The notes under the pieces: generated by a model
What the model was told of the DNA's origin: nothing
The model's database searches: none
What the model saw: the letters and a program-made list of their open reading frames with translations, nothing else
Shown here: in pieces, positions 385-63,740 of the stretch
How the letters are laid out: every line of letters starts with the position of its first letter
Position numbering within the stretch: position 1 is the first letter of the stretch
Translations under genes and position numbers: made by a program
Assembly: GCA_021371965.1 (NCBI GenBank)
Contig: JAJFVE010000111.1
Span: forward strand, 81,409 to 145,408
DNA: 64,000 nt
Direction: 5' to 3'
Source: Planctomycetaceae bacterium
Lineage (GTDB): Bacteria > Planctomycetota > Phycisphaerae > SM23-33

Positions 385-505
385 GTTAATTGGTTGACTC
401 GTTAACTCGCTAACCGGTTGACTGGGTATCAGCTCAATGCCAGCCCTTTCAACCAGTCGACCAATCAACCCGTGAACCAATTAACCAGTTATCCAGCCAA
501 CCAAC
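385..505. repeat. inverted octamer arrays (hairpin) before cydA
   Basis: The left arm (385-425) is a tandem of imperfect 8-base units, GTTAATTG GTTGACTC and so on. The right arm (450-505) carries the reverse complement form, AACCAGTC GACCAATC and so on. The arms can pair around a 24-base loop. The right arm runs directly into the ATG of cydA. Confidence 0.8.
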
Positions 506-3051: not shown

Positions 3052-4563
3052 TTAAGCGTTCAATCGCAGCGTGGTCAGCGACGCCGGCGGCAGCGATAGA
3101 GAGACTGTGTCCGCCGGCGCGGGGGCGGGCAGATCGGCCGGGGTGACGGCGGTGGGGCGGTCGAAGGTGTTGCTGGCATCGAGGCCGGCGCCGCCGAGGC
3201 GACGCATCTGCTTGATGCTCCAGCGCGCGGCGTCGGGGATGGCGAGGTCCACCTTCATTTCCGCATCGGGGCTGAGGTTCAGCAGCGAAACCAGGATTCC
3301 CTCATCGCTCTTGGTGGCCGAGACAGATAGGGCGGCGCGAGTTTTACCCCCCGGCAGCGTCAGCGCCGGCTGGGAGTCAATGCGCGTCTGAATCACCTGC
3401 CCGCCGCGGTGGCCCTGGAGCATCTCGAAGACGTGGTAGCTGGGTGAGCAGTAGAACTTCTCGCCCTGCGTGTACACCAGCGAATGCAGCACGTTCATCG
3501 TCTGGGCCAGGTTGGCCATGGCCACCTTCTCGAAGCGGTGGAACACGTGCAGCACGGCCGCGGCAAAAAGGGCGTCGCACATGTCGGAGGGCTGACCGAG
3601 GCCGGCGGTGATGTCGGCTTCCTTGCGCCACAGGCCCCACTCGTCCACGGCAATGTCGACGCTGTGATAGTCGCGCGTGTACTTGACGGCGTATTCGGTG
3701 TAAAGCTTGAGGTTGGCCTCCATGCCATCGAGCGAGGCGATGAACTTGCGGTGCTTGTCGGCCGGCGGGTCGTCGGCGGTTGCATCGCCGCCGGCGTAGA
3801 AGTGGTACGCCAGCAGGTCGCAGAAGCACATGACGCTGTCGCGCTCGCCCTCGGGGATCGAGCCAAAGAACGGCTCGAGCCAACCGGGCATCAGCGCCAG
3901 TACGGTCTTGGCGTCGTTGATGTTCTTGCTCCAGGGCAACTGCGCCTGCGAGGCGAACATCTTGACGTACCCGGCGAACCGCCGCACGCTCAGGGCGTAC
4001 TGGGCAGCGCCCATCAGCCCGTCGAGGGCATAGTTGGCCTCGTTGCCCAGGCCCCAGAACATCACGTCGAACGGCGCGGGGTGTCCGTTGGCCGCGCGCT
4101 GGCGGGTGAGCGTGGTGTCCTTGGCGCAGTTGCAGTACTCAGCCCAGCTTCGGGCCTCTTCCACCGTGCCGGTGCCCAGGTTGCAGCAGAGGTACTTCTG
4201 CGTCGCCGGCCCGAGCAGTTCGCAGAACCGCATGAACTCGTGCGTGCCGAAGTGGTTGCTTTCCAGGGCGTTCCAGCCCAGGTTCTGCCGCACCGGCCGC
4301 CGATCGCGCGGGCCGATGCCGTCGGCCCAGTGGTAATTGTCCGCCCACTGCCCGCCCGGCCAGCGAACAACTGGCGGGGCGATCTTGCGCATGGCCTCAA
4401 GCGTGTCCAGCCGGATCCCGCCGTCGTTGGGGATATCCGAGCCCTCGCCGACCCAGATGCCGTCGTAAATGCAGCCGCCCAGGTGCTCGATGAACTGCCC
4501 GTCAATGTACGGGCTGATGCGGTGCTGGGTTTGCTTGGACAGCAATTCAATACGTGCGTTCAT
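3052..4563 (-). CDS. alpha-L-arabinofuranosidase, GH51 family
   Basis: Retaining glycoside hydrolase that removes terminal arabinofuranose from arabinoxylan or arabinan fragments. The 503-residue protein has the usual GH51 length and no signal peptide, so it probably acts on imported oligosaccharides. The acid/base glutamate is in LGNEANYAL, the nucleophile in VDEWGLW, and PGGQWADNYHW is a family substrate-site motif. I chose the ATG at 4563 (MNARIELL, preceded by AGAGG); an in-frame start further upstream would only add residues translated from a GTAGCC repeat array. It is transcribed alone, facing the NIF3-like gene across a hairpin repeat. Confidence 0.9.
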   Translation of the reverse strand: MNARIELLSKQTQHRISPYIDGQFIEHLGGCIYDGIWVGEGSDIPNDGGIRLDTLEAMRKIAPPVVRWPGGQWADNYHWADGIGPRDRRPVRQNLGWNALESNHFGTHEFMRFCELLGPATQKYLCCNLGTGTVEEARSWAEYCNCAKDTTLTRQRAANGHPAPFDVMFWGLGNEANYALDGLMGAAQYALSVRRFAGYVKMFASQAQLPWSKNINDAKTVLALMPGWLEPFFGSIPEGERDSVMCFCDLLAYHFYAGGDATADDPPADKHRKFIASLDGMEANLKLYTEYAVKYTRDYHSVDIAVDEWGLWRKEADITAGLGQPSDMCDALFAAAVLHVFHRFEKVAMANLAQTMNVLHSLVYTQGEKFYCSPSYHVFEMLQGHRGGQVIQTRIDSQPALTLPGGKTRAALSVSATKSDEGILVSLLNLSPDAEMKVDLAIPDAARWSIKQMRRLGGAGLDASNTFDRPTAVTPADLPAPAPADTVSLSLPPASLTTLRLNA

Positions 4564-4579
4564 GCGGGACCTCTGAGAA

Positions 4580-4653
4580 AGTAGCCAGTAGCCGGTATCC
4601 AGTAACAACAAGAAAGACTACCAGCTTTCACTGGCTACTGGCTACTGGCTACC
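4580..4653. repeat. inverted GTAGCC-type heptamer arrays
   Basis: The left arm (4580-4606) has 7-base units AGTAGCC AGTAGCC GGTATCC AGTAAC. The right arm (4629-4653) has TGGCTAC three times. The loop is about 22 bases. It lies in the divergent space between the GH51 gene and the NIF3-like gene. Confidence 0.8.
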
Positions 4654-4694
4654 AAACGCTGTACCATGCGCGCTCACAATGAAGGAATAGAAAC

Positions 4695-5489
4695 ATGAAG
4701 ATCAAAGACTTCCTGGAGCACTTCCTCGCCCAGGCCGACTGGGTCAATCGCGAGCATACCGTCGACCGCATTATCGCCGGCGACGGCGAGGCTGACGCCG
4801 ACCGCTGCCTGGTGACGTGGATGCCAAGCTTCGTCCACGTGCGCGAGGCGGCGCGCCAGGGCGTCAAGCTGCTGGTCGCCCACGAGCCGACGTTCTACTG
4901 CCATCACGACGACCGTCCCGAGATTCATCCGCCCGAGTACAAGATCGTCCAGGAGAAGCTGGCGTTCATCAAAGACAGCGGCCTCAATATCGTGCGCCTG
5001 CACGACACGTGGGACCGCTGGCCGGCGGTGGGCATTCCGTGGGCGTGGGGGCAGTTTCTGCAACTGGGCGACAAGCCCGTGGCTTTCGGGGCCGACGGAT
5101 ATCTGCATCGCCACGACATCACCCCGACGACGCTGGGCGCCTTTGCCGCCCGCGTGGCCAAGCGCTGTGCGACCATCGGCGAGCCCCGGGTGCAGGTCAC
5201 CGGCGACCTGCAGCAGACCGTCAGCAAGATCGGCGTGGGCACCGGCTGCGGGTGCGACATCAACACCTATCGCTCGATGGGTTGCGACTGCTCGGTCGTT
5301 TGCGACGACGGTTCGTGCTACTGGTCGGGCATCCAGATGGCCCGCGACGACGGCCATCCGGTCATCCGCGTCAACCACGGCACCAGCGAAGAGCCGGGCA
5401 TGGTCACGCTGACGCGGTGGATCAATGAGCACCTGCCCGTCAAAGCCACGCACCTGCCGCACGGGTGTATGTTCGAGCTGGTTGGTTGA
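4695..5489 (+). CDS. NIF3-like dinuclear-metal protein (DUF34), copy 1
   Basis: Member of the NIF3/DUF34 family of hexameric proteins with a two-metal centre; some members hydrolyse cyclic or modified nucleotides, but the role is not settled. The 264-residue protein shows the metal-site pattern VAHEPTFYCHHDD (about 57-69) and a late His in RVNHGTSEEPGM. GAAGGA precedes the ATG. A paralogue of the same length lies at 41542-42336 and shares HDxWDRxPxxGI and the C-terminal layout. The stop codon TGA is part of an octamer repeat array (GGTTGATT), so the natural 3' end has been altered or defined by the repeat. Confidence 0.85.
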   Translation: MKIKDFLEHFLAQADWVNREHTVDRIIAGDGEADADRCLVTWMPSFVHVREAARQGVKLLVAHEPTFYCHHDDRPEIHPPEYKIVQEKLAFIKDSGLNIVRLHDTWDRWPAVGIPWAWGQFLQLGDKPVAFGADGYLHRHDITPTTLGAFAARVAKRCATIGEPRVQVTGDLQQTVSKIGVGTGCGCDINTYRSMGCDCSVVCDDGSCYWSGIQMARDDGHPVIRVNHGTSEEPGMVTLTRWINEHLPVKATHLPHGCMFELVG

Positions 5490-5560
5490 TTGGTTAACTG
5501 GCTAATTGGTTAATGGGTCAACCAGCCGACCAGCCAACCAGTTAACGAGTTAACCAATCC
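5482..5560. repeat. inverted octamer arrays between NIF3-like gene and lysS
   Basis: The left arm has 8-base units GGTTGATT GGTTAACT GGCTAATT GGTTAATG. The right arm (from about 5518) has the complement, AACCAGCC GACCAGCC AACCAGTT AACGAGTT AACC. The arms are almost contiguous, so a long stem with a tiny loop can form. The first unit contains the stop codon of the NIF3-like gene. Confidence 0.85.
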
Positions 5561-5657
5561 ACCAGATACGCCCCGGCGCTTGACGCCGCGCGGGCGATGG
5601 GGGATCATGTATCATTCGTGTTGACGGATATCCGCGGGTCTTGTGGAAAGTCCATTC

Positions 5658-7118
5658 ATGCTGGAAAAAGTGCAGGCAGACAGGCAAGCGAACCTCGATA
5701 AGGTGCGCGAGCTGGGTATCGACCCTTACGGCTGGCGGTATGATACCGCTGCGCCCATCAGCACCGTGCTGGAAGGCTACAAGGAAGACGCCCAAGGTCA
5801 CGCCCTGGAAGGCCAGGCCGCCGACGTGGCGGGGCGGGTCATCCTCTTTCGTGACATGGGCAAGATGATCTTCGCCCACCTGCGCGACCAGAGCGGGCAG
5901 ATGCAAATCGCCCTGCGCAAGAATGATCTGGACGAGAAGTCCTGGGCCCTGGCCAAGCTGCTGGACCTGGGTGACATCGTGGCGGCCGCGGGCCCGCTGC
6001 AGCGCACCAAGACCGGCGAGATCACCGTCTGGGCCAAGCGCCTGACGCTGCTGTGCAAGAGCCTCGAGCCGATGCCCGAGAAGTTCCACGGCCTTACTGA
6101 CACGGAGACGCGCTACCGCCAGCGGTACCTCGACCTCGCGGCCAACCCCGACTCGATGGCCGTCTTCCAGAAGCGCGTGGCGATCATCAATCACATCCGA
6201 GCCAAGCTGGCTGCCCGCGGATACGCCGAGGTCGAGACGCCGATCCTGCAGCCGATCTACGGCGGCGGGGCGGCGCGGCCGTTTACGACGCACCACAATA
6301 CCCTCGACGCAGACCTGTTCCTGCGCATCAGCCCGGAGCTATACCTCAAGCGGCTGCTGGTGGGCGGGATGCAGCGGGTCTTCGAGATCGGCCGCAATTT
6401 CCGCAACGAAGGCATCGACACGCGGCACAATCCCGAGTTCACGATGATGGAACTCTACGAGGCCTACGCCGACTACGAGGTCATGATGGAGATTACCGAA
6501 GAGTTGATCTCCACCGCGGCCGAGAAGGTCGCCGGCGGGCTGAAGATCCCCTACGGCGAGATGGAACTGGACCTGACCCGCCCGTGGCCTCGGGCGACCT
6601 ACGGCGATCTGCTGGAAAAATACGCCGGCGTGAAGATGCGTGACGCGGCCGCCGTGCGCGCCAAAGCTCGCGAGCTGCAACTGCAGGAGTCCAACAAGGA
6701 CGACGCGGTGGTGATCAACGAGGTCTTCGAGGCCACCGTCGAGCCGGCGATGGCCAAGATGAACACGCCGCTGTTCGTGAAGGACTACCCGGCCGAGATC
6801 TGTCCGCTGACGCGCCGCAAGCCGGACGACCCGGGCATCGCCCTGCGATTCGAGGTGTTCATCGCGGGCATGGAGATCGGCAACGCCTACACCGAGCTCA
6901 ATGACCCGGCGATTCAGGAGGCCAACTTCCTCCAGCAGGTCAAGGGCGAAGGCGACGGCGCGGCCATGCGGCAGATGGACGAAGATTTCGTAACCGCCCT
7001 GCGTCACGGCATGCCCCCGGCAGGCGGACTGGGCATCGGCATAGATCGCGTGGTGATGCTGCTGACAAATCGGCAGAGTATCAGGGACGTCGTGTTGTTT
7101 CCGCTATTGAGGCAATAA
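5658..7118 (+). CDS. lysS: lysyl-tRNA synthetase, class II
   Basis: Charges tRNA-Lys with lysine using ATP. The 486-residue protein has an N-terminal OB-fold anticodon domain (roughly residues 55-145) and the class II core. Motif 2 reads FRNEGIDTRHNPEFTMME and motif 3 GGLGIGIDRVVMLL, both intact. I chose the ATG at 5658 because GGAAAG sits seven bases ahead; a GTG at 5643 is an alternative. The gene appears to stand alone. Its TAA stop codon is also the first three bases of a TAATCGG heptamer array. Confidence 0.96.
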   Translation: MLEKVQADRQANLDKVRELGIDPYGWRYDTAAPISTVLEGYKEDAQGHALEGQAADVAGRVILFRDMGKMIFAHLRDQSGQMQIALRKNDLDEKSWALAKLLDLGDIVAAAGPLQRTKTGEITVWAKRLTLLCKSLEPMPEKFHGLTDTETRYRQRYLDLAANPDSMAVFQKRVAIINHIRAKLAARGYAEVETPILQPIYGGGAARPFTTHHNTLDADLFLRISPELYLKRLLVGGMQRVFEIGRNFRNEGIDTRHNPEFTMMELYEAYADYEVMMEITEELISTAAEKVAGGLKIPYGEMELDLTRPWPRATYGDLLEKYAGVKMRDAAAVRAKARELQLQESNKDDAVVINEVFEATVEPAMAKMNTPLFVKDYPAEICPLTRRKPDDPGIALRFEVFIAGMEIGNAYTELNDPAIQEANFLQQVKGEGDGAAMRQMDEDFVTALRHGMPPAGGLGIGIDRVVMLLTNRQSIRDVVLFPLLRQ

Positions 7119-7195
7119 TCGGTAATCAGTAATCGGTAATCGGTAATCAGTAACCAGTAATCAGTAACGTAATCAGCAATCGGATCGGTAACCGA
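7116..7195. repeat. TAATCGG heptamer array, left arm
   Basis: About ten units of TAATCGG / TAATCAG / TAACCAG in tandem with a period of 7, beginning at the stop codon of lysS. The reverse complement array lies at 7608-7667, on the other side of the four-helix-bundle gene. Confidence 0.85.
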
Positions 7196-7226
7196 TGATC
7201 GATAGTCGCTTCTATGGGGTGAGGAT

Positions 7227-7610
7227 ATGGAAGAGAGAAGCCCGTTTGGGTTTGAAGATTTGGCGGTATACAGGAAGGCGAGGGAACTGCGGGGCAAAGC
7301 TTATGCGTTGGCTGGACGGTTGCCTGACTGTGAGAAATACGGCTTGGCACAGCAACTGCGAAGAGCTGCTGTTTCTGTGACAAACAATATTGCCGAAGGT
7401 CATGGACGGTACAGCTGGCAAGACAACACGAAGTTCTGCCGAACTTCTCGAGGCTCTGTGTGTGAAATAGTGGATGATCTCAATACCAGCGAAGATCGGA
7501 ATTATGCGGATAAGCCAAGCTTGGACGAGATCCGCAAGGTTGCTGCTGAGACGATGAAGCTCCTCAACGGATATATCACCTACCTTCAGAAGCAGAAGAC
7601 AGGCGACTGA
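7227..7610 (+). CDS. four helix bundle protein (23S rRNA IVS / S23 family)
   Basis: Small helical protein of the family first found encoded inside 23S rRNA intervening sequences. Family signatures are clear: FEDLAVYRKARELR at the start, CEKYGLAQQLRRAAVSVTNN and IAEGHGR in the middle, then a GSVCEIVDDL helix. Related proteins form pentameric four-helix bundles, and the Avd subunit of diversity-generating retroelements belongs to the same fold; no reverse transcriptase is present here. Length 127 residues is normal. GGTGAGG precedes the ATG. The base composition is more AT-rich than the flanking genes, and its stop codon TGA lies in the right-hand heptamer array. Molecular role unknown. Confidence 0.88.
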   Translation: MEERSPFGFEDLAVYRKARELRGKAYALAGRLPDCEKYGLAQQLRRAAVSVTNNIAEGHGRYSWQDNTKFCRTSRGSVCEIVDDLNTSEDRNYADKPSLDEIRKVAAETMKLLNGYITYLQKQKTGD

Positions 7611-7667
7611 TTACCGATACCGATTACGGTTTACCGATTACTGATTACTGATTACTGATTACTGTTT
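7608..7667. repeat. CGATTAC heptamer array, right arm
   Basis: Units ATTACCG, ATTACGG, TTTACCG and ATTACTG (the last four times), the reverse complement of the array at 7116-7195. It begins in the stop codon of the four-helix-bundle gene and ends a few bases before the ATG of the ABC permease. Confidence 0.85.
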
Positions 7668-7674
7668 TCAAGAA

Positions 7675-9702
7675 ATGTACAAACTCCACCTACTCCTGAC
7701 GTACCTGCGCAGCAAGGCCCTGGCGATCCTGGCGATGCTGGGCGTGTCGGCGTGCGTGTTTTTGATGCTCGTCAGCGTCAGCGTCATGAGCGGGTTTCTG
7801 TGGAAGATCGAGCGGGCGGCCAAGGGGCTTTTCGGCGACGTCGTCGTCGAGTCCGGCGGCGTCACCGGCATGGCGTACTACGACGAGTTCATCGCCGAGG
7901 TGACGAAGAAGGTGCCCGAGGTCAAGGCCGGCTCGCCCTTCATTCTCGCGTATGGCATCCTGCCGGTGCCGGGCACCGATTTTCGCCAGACGATCCAGAT
8001 CGCCGGCATCCGCCTGCCCCAGCGCGTGGACGTGTCCGACTTCGAGCAGGGGCTCTACTTCGAGGCCGGCGTGCCGCGACCCACGTTCGATCCGCCGGCA
8101 AAGCTGCTGCTGGAAAGGATCAAGCAGGACAATGACCAGGTGCTCTTGATCCGCCAGCGCGAGACGCTCAAGGTCTACGCCCTGCAGACCGACCGGGACA
8201 AGCTCCTGCCTATCCAGCGCCAGCGCCTGGACAAGCTGCTGGACTCGCCGCCGCCGGTCGGCGACGACGATATGGCCTGGCTCGCCGCGCTGCCGCAGAA
8301 GACGGCCGACGACCTGACCGACTCGCAGATGCGCGACATCCTGGCCTCGCAGGCGATCGCCGAGCGGATCCAGACGACGTTTGTCTTCCGGCGCCGCGCT
8401 CAGCGATGCATCCTCAACACGCAGAAGTACCGCCAACAGTGGACGGACCTCCGCAACGTGCTGGCACAGGCCCAGGACAAAGGCCCATCCGCATCGACCA
8501 CCGCCGCGCTGAGTCAGGCCTTGGTGCTGCTGGAGACGCTGGCGGCCGAGGATTTTCTGCGCACGAACAAGTCGGTCGAGGCGGCGCTGCCCGGTCTCAA
8601 AGACGAGCTCAAGCGGGCTCGCCAGGACCTGCCCACCGTCGAGACCGTCGACGCCCTGGACCGCTGCCTGGCCCTGACGCAGGAGTACCTGATGGGCGAT
8701 GCGGCGCACCGCGTCGTTCTGGGCCTGGGCATCGGCGGGCTGTCATTCCGTTCGCCCAAAGGCGAGACGATCCGCCACGTCGTGCCCGGCAACAAGATCT
8801 CGCTGCTGATGCTGCCGCTGGGCAAGGCGACCGGCACGTCCATGCCGCAGGTGCAGATGGCCGACTTCACCGTCATCGACGACAATCACAGCGACGTCTC
8901 CAGCATCGACTCGAAGTTCGTCTACATTCCCTTTGAGACGCTGCAGGCCATGAACAACATGGCCGCCGAGTACGACGCAGACGACTCCAAGCGGGTGGTC
9001 GTGCCGGCCCGCTGCTCGCAGATCCATTTCAAGGTGGACATCGACAAGTGGGTGCCCTCGGCGCGGCTCCTGGAAGGCGCCAAGGGGCAGTGGCTCCCGC
9101 ACCGGTATTCGGAAGAAGAGATTCTCCAGGATGTCTCGGGCAAGATTCAGGAACTCTGGAAGACCTTCGCGGCCGAGCCCAGCCACCGGGCCTCGGGCGA
9201 GGTCTCGATCGTGACGTGGCGGCAGTTGCAGCGGCACGTGATCGGGCCCATCCAGCAGCAGCGAACGCTGGCGATCGTGATGAACAGCATCATGTGGGGC
9301 GTGTCGGTGCTGCTGATCGTGGTGATCCTGTACGTGATCGTGGTGCAGAAGACCGCCGACATCGGGATCGTCAAGGCGGTGGGCGGTTCGTCCTGGGGCG
9401 TGGCGGGCATCTTCTTCGGCTACGGGGCGATCATCGGGCTGATCGGGTCGGTGCTGGGATCGGTGCTGGGATGGATCTTCGTCAGGAATATCAATGCCAT
9501 CCAGGACTTCACGGATGCGACAGTGGGTTTCCGCGTCTGGGACCCCGAGACGTTCATGTTCGAGAAGATCCCCAACGAGGTGGACTGGTCCGCGGCGGTG
9601 TGGATCATCGCCGGCGCCCTGGTGGCGGGGCTGATCGGGGCGATGATTCCGGCGGTCCGGGCGGCCCGCATGCAGCCGGTGGAGGCCCTTCGCTATGAAT
9701 GA
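7675..9702 (+). CDS. ABC transporter permease, FtsX/LolC-MacB type, with large periplasmic domain
   Basis: Inner-membrane permease of a lipoprotein- or lipid-extracting type ABC system. The 675-residue protein has one helix near residues 15-40, a long periplasmic region (about 45-530) and three helices at the C-terminus in the FtsX domain, including WGVSVLLIVVILYVIVVQ and the coupling segment ADIGIVKAVGGSSWG. It ends in AVRAARMQPVEALRYE, the normal FtsX-family tail. It is much longer than LolC (about 400 residues) because of the periplasmic part, which includes a helical stretch near 190-330. It overlaps the ATPase gene by eight bases. A link to lipoproteins or LPS is inferred from the lpxI neighbour. 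Confidence 0.88.
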   Translation: MYKLHLLLTYLRSKALAILAMLGVSACVFLMLVSVSVMSGFLWKIERAAKGLFGDVVVESGGVTGMAYYDEFIAEVTKKVPEVKAGSPFILAYGILPVPGTDFRQTIQIAGIRLPQRVDVSDFEQGLYFEAGVPRPTFDPPAKLLLERIKQDNDQVLLIRQRETLKVYALQTDRDKLLPIQRQRLDKLLDSPPPVGDDDMAWLAALPQKTADDLTDSQMRDILASQAIAERIQTTFVFRRRAQRCILNTQKYRQQWTDLRNVLAQAQDKGPSASTTAALSQALVLLETLAAEDFLRTNKSVEAALPGLKDELKRARQDLPTVETVDALDRCLALTQEYLMGDAAHRVVLGLGIGGLSFRSPKGETIRHVVPGNKISLLMLPLGKATGTSMPQVQMADFTVIDDNHSDVSSIDSKFVYIPFETLQAMNNMAAEYDADDSKRVVVPARCSQIHFKVDIDKWVPSARLLEGAKGQWLPHRYSEEEILQDVSGKIQELWKTFAAEPSHRASGEVSIVTWRQLQRHVIGPIQQQRTLAIVMNSIMWGVSVLLIVVILYVIVVQKTADIGIVKAVGGSSWGVAGIFFGYGAIIGLIGSVLGSVLGWIFVRNINAIQDFTDATVGFRVWDPETFMFEKIPNEVDWSAAVWIIAGALVAGLIGAMIPAVRAARMQPVEALRYE

Positions 9703-15713: not shown

Positions 15714-15743
15714 GGAATGCAACTGGAGATTATACCCAGAAAA

Positions 15744-15838
15744 ACCAGTAGCCGGTAGCCGGTAGCCAGTAACGGGGATTAATGCGAATCTGACTGGCTA
15801 CGGGCTACTGGCTACTGGCTACCATACCGGCTACTAGC
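15744..15838. repeat. inverted GTAGCCG heptamer arrays between ispA and lpxA
   Basis: The left arm (15744-15773) has CAGTAGC CGGTAGC CGGTAGC CAGTAAC. The right arm (15792-15838) has GACTGGCTAC, GGGCTAC and TGGCTAC units. The spacer is about 18 bases. It lies in the divergent space, so it may be transcribed as part of one or both leaders. Confidence 0.8.
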
Positions 15839-18010: not shown

Positions 18011-18129
18011 TGGAAGAGAGCACGAATGTCACGAATGAAGCTAATGCAGAAATAAGGAACGGCATAGAAGCGCGCACATCAGTTTTGTTGTTTCTTCTAT
18101 TCGCCCCATTCGTGACATTCGTGTTCTCT
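18011..18129. repeat. inverted CACGAATGT (9-base) arrays
   Basis: The left arm GAAGAGAGCACGAATGTCACG (18013-18036 with the following AATG) pairs with CATTCGTGACATTCGTGTTC plus TCTT at 18108-18129. Between them are about 70 bases without a gene. It lies between the convergent uronate-isomerase-like gene and proC. The same 9-base unit is used at 63568-63737. Confidence 0.8.
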
Positions 18130-18978: not shown

Positions 18979-19070
18979 TTAGCTGGTTGACTCGTTGACC
19001 GGTTAACTCGTTAACTGGAGATGCCCAATTTACCATTAACCAGTCAACCAGTTAACCCAGTCAACCAACT
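18979..19070. repeat. inverted octamer arrays between mutS and proC
   Basis: The left arm (18979-19018) has GTTAGCTG GTTGACTC GTTGACCG GTTAACTC GTTAACTG. The right arm (19033-19070) has AACCAGTC AACCAGTT AACCCAGTC AACC. The loop is about 14 bases. It begins next to the mutS stop codon and ends before the proC start, so it may act in the proC leader. Confidence 0.85.
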
Positions 19071-21718: not shown

Positions 21719-21739
21719 GAGGGCGATGATAGCAGGAAT

Positions 21740-21815
21740 AGTTCGAAGATCGAAGATCGAAGTTCGAAGAACGGCAGCGCGGACTACCACAGAGAGGCAG
21801 AGAGAAACGAGAGTA
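21740..21815. repeat. GTTCGAA array followed by CACAGAG-type array upstream of mutS
   Basis: Units GTTCGAA GATCGAA GATCGAA GTTCGAA GAAC (about 21740-21772) are followed by CCACAGAGAGGCAGAGAG (about 21787-21804). The same two unit types occur near each other at the cydB/GH51 junction (2898-3044), in a different relative orientation. No inverted partner is seen within 200 bases. These arrays occupy the mutS leader. Confidence 0.7.
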
Positions 21816-57573: not shown

Positions 57574-57629
57574 TGCTTTGCTCCTGTGGCGGGAGTAGAC
57601 ACCAACAGAGGGCAGACGATCAAGAATAA

Positions 57630-57775
57630 AACCGAGGACGACGACGAGGACGACGACGATTACGATGTCATTTCGCGCTTCTATTTTCGCCACAAGGATG
57701 GACGCGTAAGTTGGCTCCACATGTTGGATAGTGCCTCCTCGTTCTCGTCGTCGTCCTCGTCCTCGTCGTCGGTTG
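57630..57775. repeat. inverted GACGAGGAC arrays between pyrE and lepB
   Basis: ACCGAGGACGACGACGAGGA then CGACGACG (57631-57658) and CGTTCTCGTCGTCGTCCTCG then TCCTCGTCGTCGGTT (57736-57770). The same unit type surrounds NIF3-like copy 2. It occupies the divergent promoter region. Confidence 0.8.
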
Positions 57776-61550: not shown

Positions 61551-61646
61551 GAGGCTCTCCTTATGTCGCTACATGTTCATGACGCCCCATTGTAGGAAGA
61601 GCCAATTACGATTGGCGGCGGTGGGCAGGAGCTTGGGACAAAGAGT

Positions 61647-61745
61647 TGGGCCACAGAGACACAGAGAAAAACGAGAAGATGGCTATGAGAAACCAGATTC
61701 GTCTTAACTTTGCCCGGCTCTGTGAGTTCTGTGTCTTTGTGGCCC
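61647..61745. repeat. inverted CACAGAG-type arrays downstream of pyrG
   Basis: TTGGGCCACAGAGACACAGA (61647-61666) and CTCTGTGAGTTCTGTGTCTT followed by TGTGGCCC (61718-61745) pair around a 50-base loop. It follows the pyrG stop by about 30 bases. Confidence 0.8.
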
Positions 61746-61775
61746 ACAACCGCCTGATGGTATAAACCTCAGCGG

Positions 61776-63503
61776 CTAATTCTGTTTTCGTCGCTCCAGC
61801 GCGGCGGCGACGAGGCCTACGAACATCGGCTGGGGGTATAGCGGGCGGCTGGTCAACTCGGGGTGGAACTGGGCGGCCACGAAGTACGGGTGCACGTCGC
61901 GGGGCAGCTCGAGGATCTGCATGATGGGATGTTGGCCGTGGCGGCCGGAGAACTTCAGCCCGGCGGCCTCGATCTGATCGATGTATTTGGGGTCGACCTC
62001 GTAGCGGTGGCGGAATCGCTGGCGGATGCGCTTGGCGTTGCCGTACAGGCCCGCGGCGATCGTGCCTGGAGTGATCTCCACATCCTGGCCGCCCAGGCGC
62101 ATGTTGCCGCCCAGACCCTCGATCTTCTTCTGGTCGGGCAGAATGTCGATCACCGCATGGGCGCACTGCGGGTCGATCTCGGAGCTGTCGGCGCCCTTGA
62201 GGCCGCAGACGTTGCGGGCGTATTCGATCACGGCCATCTGGAACCCCAGGCAGATGCCCAGGTAGGGTATGCGGTTCTCGCGGACGTATTTCACGCAGGC
62301 GATCTTTCCGCTGGTGCCGCGCACGCCGAAACCGCCCGGGACGATGATCCCATCCACGTCGCCCAGCGCTGCCGCGACGTTGTCATCATTAATATCGGTG
62401 GTGTCGATCCACTTGATCTGCACCTCGGCCGCGTTGGCCACGCCGGCGTGCTCGAGGGCCTTGAGGATGCTGGCGTAGCTGTCGCGCAGGGCGGTGTACT
62501 TGCCCGTGATGCCGATGGTGGTCTTGTGGCCGGGGTTTTCCAAGGCCGCGCAGAACGTGCGCCATTTCTGGGCCGCGCGGGCGTCGGCCATCGAGTTGAC
62601 CTTGCCGCCGAGGTTCAGAAGTTGCACGACCTCGCTGTCGAGCCCGGCTTCGCGCATCGTCTCGGGCAACAGGTAGATGCTCTTGAGGTCGTGCATCGAG
62701 AAGACGCGCCGCATCGGGACGTTGGTGTAGACGGAGATCTTCTGGCGCACCTTGTCGACGACGGGCTGCTCGGCCCGGCAGGCGATGATGTCGGGGTGGA
62801 TGCCGTACTCCATCAGGCGCTTGATGCCCAGTTGGGCGGCCTTGGACTTCTGCTCGCCCAGCGCCGGCGGGCTCAGCACGTACGTCAGCGCCACGAAGAG
62901 CACCGAACCCTCGCCCTCCTCGTAGCTCAGCTCGCGCAGGGCCTCGATGAAGAACGCGTTCTCGATGTCGCCGACGGTGCCGCCGACTTCGACGAAGATC
63001 ACGTCGGCCTTGCTCGCCACCGCCAGCTCGCGCAGGCGCAGCTTCACTTCGCCGGTGACGTGGGGGATCATCTGCACGTCGCGCCCGAGATAGCTGCCGG
63101 CCCGCTCCTTATCGAGCACCGCGCGGAAGATCTGTCCGCTGGTGGCGAAATTGGCGGCCGTGAGGTTCTGGTTGAGCATCCGCTCGTAGGTGCCCAGGTC
63201 CATGTCGGTTTCCATGCCGTCGTCGAGCACGAAGACCTCGCCATGGCGATAGGGATTGAGCGTGCCCGAGTCGATATTGAGATAGCCTTCCAGCTTGATC
63301 GGCGCGACGGCCAGGCCCTTGTCCTTGAGCAGCTTGGCCAGCGAAGAGGAGAAGATCCCCTTGCCCAGCCCGCTCATGACGGTGCCGAAGACGGCTACGT
63401 ACTTGGTGGAGCCCAACCGATAACCGTCGGGCAAAGGCGTGTAGAATTCCGTTTCGTCGGTGCGATCCTTGACGGACCGCAGCAAATCCATGGCGTCGCT
63501 CAT
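61776..63503 (-). CDS. pyrG: CTP synthase with divergent N-terminal motifs
   Basis: Aminates UTP to CTP with glutamine. The 575-residue protein has a synthetase domain and a class-I amidotransferase domain with nucleophile Cys in GICLGFQMAVIEYA and His-Glu in QFHPELTSRP. The synthetase half keeps the metal Asp/Glu segments (DDGMETDMDLGTYERM; VEVGGTVGDIEN). Two normally invariant stretches differ: GTVMSGLGKG for GGVVSSLGKG, and KLEGYLNIDSGTLNPYRHGE in place of K-x-DPY-x-NVDPGTM. kdsB, which uses CTP, is next upstream on the same strand. Confidence 0.93.
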   Translation of the reverse strand: MSDAMDLLRSVKDRTDETEFYTPLPDGYRLGSTKYVAVFGTVMSGLGKGIFSSSLAKLLKDKGLAVAPIKLEGYLNIDSGTLNPYRHGEVFVLDDGMETDMDLGTYERMLNQNLTAANFATSGQIFRAVLDKERAGSYLGRDVQMIPHVTGEVKLRLRELAVASKADVIFVEVGGTVGDIENAFFIEALRELSYEEGEGSVLFVALTYVLSPPALGEQKSKAAQLGIKRLMEYGIHPDIIACRAEQPVVDKVRQKISVYTNVPMRRVFSMHDLKSIYLLPETMREAGLDSEVVQLLNLGGKVNSMADARAAQKWRTFCAALENPGHKTTIGITGKYTALRDSYASILKALEHAGVANAAEVQIKWIDTTDINDDNVAAALGDVDGIIVPGGFGVRGTSGKIACVKYVRENRIPYLGICLGFQMAVIEYARNVCGLKGADSSEIDPQCAHAVIDILPDQKKIEGLGGNMRLGGQDVEITPGTIAAGLYGNAKRIRQRFRHRYEVDPKYIDQIEAAGLKFSGRHGQHPIMQILELPRDVHPYFVAAQFHPELTSRPLYPQPMFVGLVAAALERRKQN

Positions 63504-63567
63504 GGAACCGGACTGTACAGCAGCGCGCTATCGAAGGCAAGGGCGGCCGAAGAAAAAAACGTTACAT

Positions 63568-63737
63568 CCACGAATGTCACGAATGACACGAGTGGGGGAA
63601 GAAACTTACCACAGAGGCACAGAGGGCGCTGAGAAGAGAAACAAAACGTGTTGAGAGTTCATTCCTTCTCCGTCCTCTCTGAGTCTCTGTGGTAGTTGCC
63701 GTTGTTTCCCCATTCGTGTCATTCTTGACATTCGTGG
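63568..63737. repeat. nested inverted arrays between kdsB and pyrG
   Basis: The outer pair, CCACGAATGTCACGAATGAC (63568-63587) continued by ACGAGTGGGG, faces CCCCATTCGTGTCATTCTTG (63708-63727) continued by ACATTCGTGG. The inner pair, ACCACAGAGGCACAGAGGGC (63608-63627), faces CGTCCTCTCTGAGTCTCTGT (63671-63690). The loop is about 25 bases. Two array types are thus nested in one long hairpin. Confidence 0.85.
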
Positions 63738-63740
63738 ACG

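Follow-up and report, generated by a model that had tools for sequence, protein, structure and literature searches.

The window analysed here is a stretch of 64,000 nucleotides from a Planctomycetaceae bacterium (contig JAJFVE010000111.1, positions 81,409 to 145,408), and our subject is a candidate mobile element in the junction between lysS and a pair of transporter genes. Upstream lies lysS (5643-7118), whose stop codon is part of the element's first repeat unit. Downstream, 7 nt beyond the end of the right arm, starts a gene for a LolC/E-like permease (7675-9702), followed by one for a LolD-like ATPase, in agreement with a first-pass annotation that had placed the element between lysS and ATP-binding cassette (ABC) transporter genes. 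The element consists of a repeat array, a small gene and an inverted array, with boundaries drawn by analogy with relatives at two sites:

7116..7667, + strand: whole element (arm, gene and arm) in the lysS-lolC junction
7116..7195, + strand: left arm, a TAATCGG/TAATCAG array of about 9.7 copies that reaches 7181-7183 and is followed by degenerate units
7227..7610, + strand: PF05635 / TIGR02436 four-helix-bundle (Avd-like) gene, 127 aa, GC content at third codon positions (GC3) 0.56
7606..7667, - strand: right arm, inverted array CTGATTA/CCGATTA

Tandem-repeat detection gives both arrays a period of 7, with 9.7 copies of consensus TAATCAG on the left (7116-7181/7183) and 8.6 copies of consensus ACTGATT on the right (7606-7664). 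The longest inverted pair without gaps (7117-7169 / 7615-7667) spans 53 nt at 83% complementarity, which, together with a PF05635 match, bears out the earlier description of a gene of intervening-sequence type at 7227-7610 between a TAATCGG array and its reverse complement. The right array had been placed at 7608; it starts at 7606, within the last codons, and arm and gene therefore overlap. The deviating base composition was also correctly seen: the gene has a GC content of 0.508 and a GC3 of 0.559, against a GC3 of 0.862 for lysS and 0.910 for lolC, and the arms have GC contents of 0.40 and 0.35. We scored arms as the local complementarity of the two flanks of a gene and called them at a score of at least 28. 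The window element scores 70, above the maximum of 68 among 332 control open reading frames (ORFs) of the same loci, and these controls rule out a chance origin of the arms.

We know of no role for PF05635 genes, annotated 'four helix bundle protein', outside 23S rRNA intervening sequences and the retroelement protein Avd. The window protein matches PF05635 (23S_rRNA_IVP) over the whole 106-position profile (E 1.1e-28, 100 bits, cut-off 33.8) and TIGR02436 (four helix bundle protein; 1.7e-26, 92.5 bits, cut-off 24). Its AlphaFold2 (AF2) model, with a predicted local distance difference test (pLDDT) score of 96.1, is a four-helix bundle. In a structure search of the pdb library, the model resembles the S23-family structures 2GSC (template modelling (TM) score by target 0.93-0.95) and 2RLD (0.70-0.90), and it also matches Avd (4DWL) and chains of the diversity-generating retroelement (DGR) ribonucleoprotein (8UB7/8UBB), with TM scores by query of 0.70-0.78 and a probability of 1.00. 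By sequence, 2GSC is the sole PDB match at E 0.01. Neither the profile search nor the 50 fold matches listed contained a nuclease or transposase domain. Residues Q43, S50, N54, E57, G58 and E80 are invariant in a 35-row alignment (A1), and the median ratio of nonsynonymous to synonymous substitution rates (dN/dS), 0.092 over the 23 unsaturated of 120 non-independent pairs, indicates purifying selection.

Arms of this kind accompany most copies of the family that we examined. A scan of species genomes for relatives of the window protein yielded 93 confirmed loci, of which 80 were kept; judged by record title, these come mostly from Verrucomicrobia, Planctomycetes/Phycisphaerae, Ignavibacteria and Bacteroidetes. 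To these loci, which are relatives of the window protein by construction, we added the 30 best of a genome search and 22 chosen lower-scoring copies (41-98 bits). L068 and six further rows were removed as duplicates, although one of the six, L111_94175, is a separate copy on the same stretch; 124 of the 126 copies left were testable. Arms flank 102 of these 124 distinct copies and 10 of the 332 control ORFs, while in direct orientation the same flanks reach 28 in 10 of 124. Two of the ten high-scoring controls are themselves PF05635 genes; four are nuoA, nuoD (twice) and cysD, their translations read by eye, and four are others. The first-pass annotation had proposed this comparison of homologues with other genes and had held that close homologues lacking arrays would speak against it; given these counts, homologues generally do carry them. 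With narrower flanks and a threshold set at the controls' 99th percentile, arms were found in 33 of 79 copies and 4 of 319 controls, and a preliminary test at score 30 gave 87 of 130 and 10 of 338. The family occurs in 101 of 118 genomes of one order and in none of 14 control genomes. Twenty genomes, chosen for holding a studied locus, have 2-26 matches each, some of them fragments or with stops; the cultured Lacipirellula limnantheis has two. In the kin genome G195, 6 of 10 scored copies reach 28 (three sub-threshold matches stand outside this count). Arm units differ between elements, yet within each element both arms match. Among 100 elements the period is 7 in 43, 8 in 42, 9 in 5, 6 in 1 and unclear in 9, and G exceeds C in the 5' arm of 91 of the 102 elements, with the reverse in 9.

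The arm unit follows the lineage of the protein. For 100 of the 102 scoring elements (those without a stop codon and of at least 70 aa), protein distance correlates with arm 4-mer distance (Mantel r 0.427; 0 of 2000 permutations as high), and the same 0 of 2000 is obtained when permuting within host groups, which were assigned by hand from titles and genomes. Restricting the comparison to the 4778 pairs from different sites and, as far as assigned, different genomes leaves r at 0.408 (0 of 1000). At protein distances of 0.45-0.60, arm similarity (0.191) stays above that of the most distant pairs (0.082), whereas the leader that separates arm from gene has fallen to its background (0.175 vs 0.184). 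At distances of 0.35-0.45, same-site and different-site pairs have alike arm similarity (0.26 and 0.25). The window element and L001, at different sites, share 54% protein identity, the TAATCGG unit and an arm similarity of 0.79. In contrast, the window element and L027 and L033, which occupy a common lysS-lolC site, have protein identities of 48 and 47% and an arm similarity of 0.0, the unit of L027 being TTGACTGG. In the protein tree, of which 35 of 97 inner branches are unresolved, the window protein clusters with L001, L028 and L036 (Shimodaira-Hasegawa-like approximate likelihood ratio test (SH-aLRT) 91, no starred set), and L027/L033 fall in another clade (95); the lysS-lolC junction thus hosts two lineages.

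Two other accounts of the arm unit were rejected. It is not a property of the host genome, as the 47 same-genome pairs at protein distances of at least 0.65 have arm similarity at background (0.090-0.096). Nor is it a property of the site alone, given the site and arm comparisons above, with close same-site pairs as the exception.

Relatives carry arm, gene and arm as one unit at different places. L017 has its element in the nuoB-nuoC gap, and in L030 and L051 the element stands between nuoD and nuoI (genes named from their translations). L017 is 82.9 and 84.6% identical to L030 and L051 over 560 columns of arm, gene and arm, whereas the flanks share 33-40%. Genome G018 (L273) holds two copies 3.4 kb apart, at about 1303-1946 and 4680-5261, which share 94.8% identity over 458 nt and a further left piece at 86.7% over 113 columns. 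Each starts directly after a stop codon, that of a different gene in the two cases, and extends to the right arm; one of the copies has a disruption close to its start. Further same-genome pairs that we inspected are 67-73% identical. Gene-less hairpins stand beside these elements: at other junctions of Verrucomicrobia nuo operons they share one order of unit variants, GTTAAA, GTTAAA, GTTACAA, GTTAAA (by eye), and the junction after nuoD is gene-bearing in L030 and L051 and gene-less in L021 and L073. Recurrence of one element with fixed ends at separate sites, as expected of a transposable element in general, is found in the relatives rather than for the window copy itself. As far as sequence comparison can show, the arms form the two ends of the element and pass on together with the gene, and in relatives the arm-gene-arm unit occurs at different junctions.

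Taken together, we think it likely that positions 7116-7667 of the window represent a single copy of a mobile hairpin element that encodes a protein and is made up of an array, an Avd-like (PF05635) gene and an inverted array; that it has moved we infer from its relatives. Such an element would insert between operon genes, often right after a stop codon, and would mostly be oriented with the operon's transcription, which would make it part of the host transcript. The Avd-like protein, through its S23/Avd bundle fold, probably recognises the element's own arms. Cutting or copying would fall to an enzyme of the host or one acting in trans, because no nuclease or transposase turned up in the profile search or the listed fold matches. 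The first-pass annotation had suggested that the protein may bind or propagate such arms and that the gene-bearing form may be the autonomous one. The tracking of protein lineage by the arm unit fits the former, but would look the same if gene and arms merely travelled together. As to the latter, in relatives the gene does occur with its arms at different sites, and its form may be the autonomous one, but gene-less short-period hairpins occupy 8 of 24 lysS-lolC junctions.

Gene-less hairpins are also present in the window, on the + strand, with counterparts in G195, the nearest relative, where stated:

385..505, + strand: gene-less hairpin of GTTGACTSG/GTTAACTSG units; G195 keeps only a 16-nt remnant, CGTTAATTGGTTAACT
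4580..4656, + strand: gene-less hairpin of GTAGCCAGTAGCCGG units; a different hairpin in G195 (4560-4660)
5479..5558, + strand: gene-less hairpin of GGTTAACT units; a different, degenerate array in G195
15740..15826, + strand: gene-less hairpin of GTAGCCGG units, as at 4580
18980..19070, + strand: gene-less hairpin of GTTGACTCGTTAACTGG units, as at 385

These five in 64 kb have short-period arms and no gene, as the first-pass annotation had said, but their units are other than TAATCGG. A likeness to arms found around PF05635 genes elsewhere is seen for the hairpins at 385, 5479 and 18980, where 22, 10 and 8 of 500 random units come as close; those at 4580 and 15740 show no likeness to the arms compared (237 and 255 of 500). 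With crude gene calls, inverted arms occur in 4 of 32 spacers of the window, 3 of them short-period (1 after shuffling), and in 9 of 25 spacers of G195, 4 of them short-period (0 after shuffling). For genomes without PF05635, PF05635-rich genomes and the window, controls in direct orientation numbered 2, 2 and 1, and tandem stretches 28, 67 and 30. We infer that gene-less hairpins are non-autonomous or decayed copies of such elements. The link to a hairpin family, which had been proposed from the window alone, gains support from gene-less hairpins of the same unit kind in neighbouring nuo-operon junctions (by eye); the comparison between genomes is too weak to decide it.

Several observations weigh against the reading of a mobile element with its own recognised arms. 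At score 14, gene-less hairpins number 3 in 300 kb of PF05635-rich genomes and 0 in 297 kb of genomes without the family, which gives no link, and at score 16 there are none in either set. Of the 124 PF05635 copies, 22 score below 28. Taken group by group, the Mantel test gives 0 of 2000 in three host groups, but for the 8 Bacteroidetes-type elements, the smallest group, a correlation at least as high as the real one came up in 57 of 2000 permutations. Below a protein distance of 0.25, arm similarity is 0.81 for same-site pairs (34) and 0.40 for different-site pairs (11), and the signal is therefore partly one of vertical inheritance at a site. A correlation between arm and protein can also arise if the two simply travel together, without recognition. 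Insertion within a population was not seen, target-site duplication was not readable by eye on comparing occupied with empty sdhA-sdhB junctions, and the lysS-lolC junction of G195 (lysS 96% and lolC 84% identical) holds a different gene-less hairpin (AAATTCG) instead of a clean empty site.

The histories of individual sites raise the alternative that hairpins arise where they stand: arrays would form by slippage and be mirrored by template switching, the hairpin would belong to the site, perhaps as a host regulatory or mRNA-stabilising structure, and the gene would be a passenger. We searched 298 genomes for lysS-lolC and surveyed the 30 best loci, 24 of which show both genes. Two of these junctions hold PF05635 genes, 57 and 50% identical to that of the window and with other arm units (the second is the L033 locus); eight hold gene-less short-period hairpins, one, L194, combines another hairpin with short L033-type arms, and the remaining 13 stay under a score of 28. 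The eight gene-less hairpins each have another unit (by eye), as an origin in place would predict. Such an origin would also suit the most similar arms being those of close same-site pairs, and the differences in G195 at lysS-lolC, 4560-4660 and 5479-5558 and its reduction of 385-505 to 16 nt. It sits poorly with the unlike arms of the window element and L027/L033 at one site, with homologous arms and gene at two sites, with the one order of unit variants repeated by the gene-less nuo hairpins (by eye), and with the background arm similarity (0.090-0.096) of the 47 same-genome pairs of distant proteins. Moreover, empty junctions occur. Between sdhA and sdhB in one family, 29 of 30 junctions were read: 8 are gene-bearing, 7, with gaps of -4 to 8, are empty, and 14 are other, a class in which L239 and L245 carry short-period arms. 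On balance, we regard an origin in place as improbable.

A further alternative follows the likeness to 23S rRNA intervening sequences (IVSs). The arms may pair in the mRNA and RNase III cut the stem, excising the insert and leaving the operon unharmed; excision at the transcript level could explain why insertion is tolerated, and it may coexist with mobility. An IVS with an S23 ORF, such as that of Coxiella burnetii, likewise has a PF05635-family ORF inside terminal inverted repeats, forming a single-gene hairpin, and shares a sporadic distribution, deviant GC content and a proposed selfish or formerly mobile nature. In Coxiella, terminal inverted repeats bound the IVS, and RNase III cleaves it in vitro (PMC4990558). 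The predicted window transcript folds with both arms paired (minimum free energy (MFE) -203.8, z = -5.76; 0 of 100 shuffles as low). Among the 102 elements both neighbours lie on the gene's strand in 71, both are opposite in 9, 17 are mixed and 5 have one neighbour; these strands are approximate, as they were taken from the longest open frames. However, arm mismatches are 123 of G-U and 121 of A-C type (p 0.95), and hence do not suggest that base pairing is maintained as RNA on the transcribed strand. The window element also differs from 23S rRNA IVSs in lying in the lysS-lolC operon junction and not within a 23S rRNA gene, and the present arms are arrays, mostly of 7-8-nt units, that are lineage-specific and free of wobble bias. 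Of the IVS analogy drawn in the first-pass annotation, the protein family and overall plan therefore stand, while the location and the wobble signature of an RNA stem do not. Excision from the transcript is, in our view, somewhat unlikely to be what these elements are about.

A second gene family shows the same plan. GxxExxY genes (PF13366, PDDEXK_3; loci L205-L223) have inverted short-period arms in 15 of 19 scored copies at a score of at least 28; 20 copies had been fetched, from 26 match rows, with a match in 9 of 10 genomes. The best period of these 15 is 9 in 7, 8 in 3, 10 in 2 and unclear in 3; CACAGAGGA and GGATTAACA are among the units. PMC8934634 mentions a GxxExxY gene next to a reverse transcriptase. 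In the window, 61596-61862 and the inner part of 63566-63738 form hairpin arms of CCACAGAG units, a kind that brackets GxxExxY genes elsewhere; 4 and 20 of 500 random units match GxxExxY-type units as well as the arms at 61596 and near 63600 do.

That an unrelated family has arms too would be expected if the hairpins were mobile by themselves, REPIN-like and served by another transposase, and caught PF05635 genes between their arms by chance. In keeping with this, gene-less hairpins outnumber the one gene-bearing hairpin in the window, and Y1 transposase matches occur in all 20 genomes with at least 8 PF05635 matches and in 10 of the 17 that lack the family. Against it, arms surround 10 of 332 control genes, although only two families were examined in arms. 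A median dN/dS of 0.09 argues for a kept function, and where the flanks of the Y1 transposase genes (L288-L307) pair, in 9 of 20, they read as palindromes of the repetitive extragenic palindromic (REP) type, in contrast to short-period arms. We consider it quite unlikely that the genes are captured cargo.

The mobile-element reading invites comparison with other known systems. Avd of DGRs resembles the predicted AF2 model in fold, and PMC10053308 relates PF05635 to Avd. A DGR would have an adjacent reverse transcriptase with template and variable repeats; the three neighbours scanned, lysS, lolC-like and lolD-like, include no reverse transcriptase. RVT_1 was detected in 10 of the 20 genomes that have at least 8 PF05635 matches and in 5 of the 17 that lack the family; in G018, the genome with the 94.8% pair, it was not detected, and all these assemblies may be incomplete. 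A need for a resident reverse transcriptase was rejected on the ground that RVT_1 was present in only 10 of the 20 PF05635-rich genomes. Systems of REP doublets forming hairpins and their associated tyrosine transposases (REPIN-RAYT) share intergenic hairpins, gene-bearing and gene-less forms and a hairpin sequence tied to the protein lineage. They differ in that the window gene has no Y1/HUH match and its arms are 7-nt tandem arrays with no REP palindrome; RAYT-type arms were rejected as the same thing, since Y1 genes in the same genomes bear REP-like palindromes where their flanks pair. Miniature inverted-repeat transposable elements (MITEs) and insertion sequences likewise have terminal inverted repeats, move as a unit and have gene-less relatives. 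Here, in contrast, there is no transposase domain, the repeats are tandem arrays that vary between members, and target duplication was not read. A description of such elements was not found in the open-access full-text literature, a coverage that leaves aside preprints and most subscription papers.

We tentatively raise a broader idea, which we regard as possible rather than probable: that these are a new class of mobile DNA, transposase-free 'array-arm hairpin elements', in which small proteins (PF05635 and, separately, GxxExxY/PDDEXK_3) recognise lineage-specific arms of short units. Elements and their gene-less derivatives would continually colonise operon junctions and replace one another there in many phyla, and 23S rRNA IVSs would be a special case that landed in rRNA. 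Whatever the fate of this idea, most examined PF05635 copies lie in a hairpin element with lineage-specific arms, which gives a multi-copy family a testable role. The hairpin-element reading could account for many intergenic hairpins, and it makes the long-standing problem of the spread of intervening sequences directly testable.

Further arrays and inserts were noted in passing. At the sdhA-sdhB junction, relatives (L240-L262) carry other interchangeable palindromic inserts, of GTCATCCCGAGCGCAGCGAGGGA and GGGTAGCGCACGCGTCTCGCGTGCTGG types. In the window, 18021-18123 and the outer part of 63566-63738 form hairpin arms of CACGAATGT units, whose nearest likeness, a weak one, is to the PF05635 locus L003 in the opposite orientation (69 and 23 of 500 random units equal it). 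Inverted arms of CGAGGACGA and TCGTCCTCG units lie at 57620-57774, and the PF05635 copy L230 of G195 has arms of the same kind. Finally, TTCGAAGATCGAAG arrays with no obvious partner occur at 2889-2928 and 21738-21775; the former is conserved in G195 and resembles the arms of L088.

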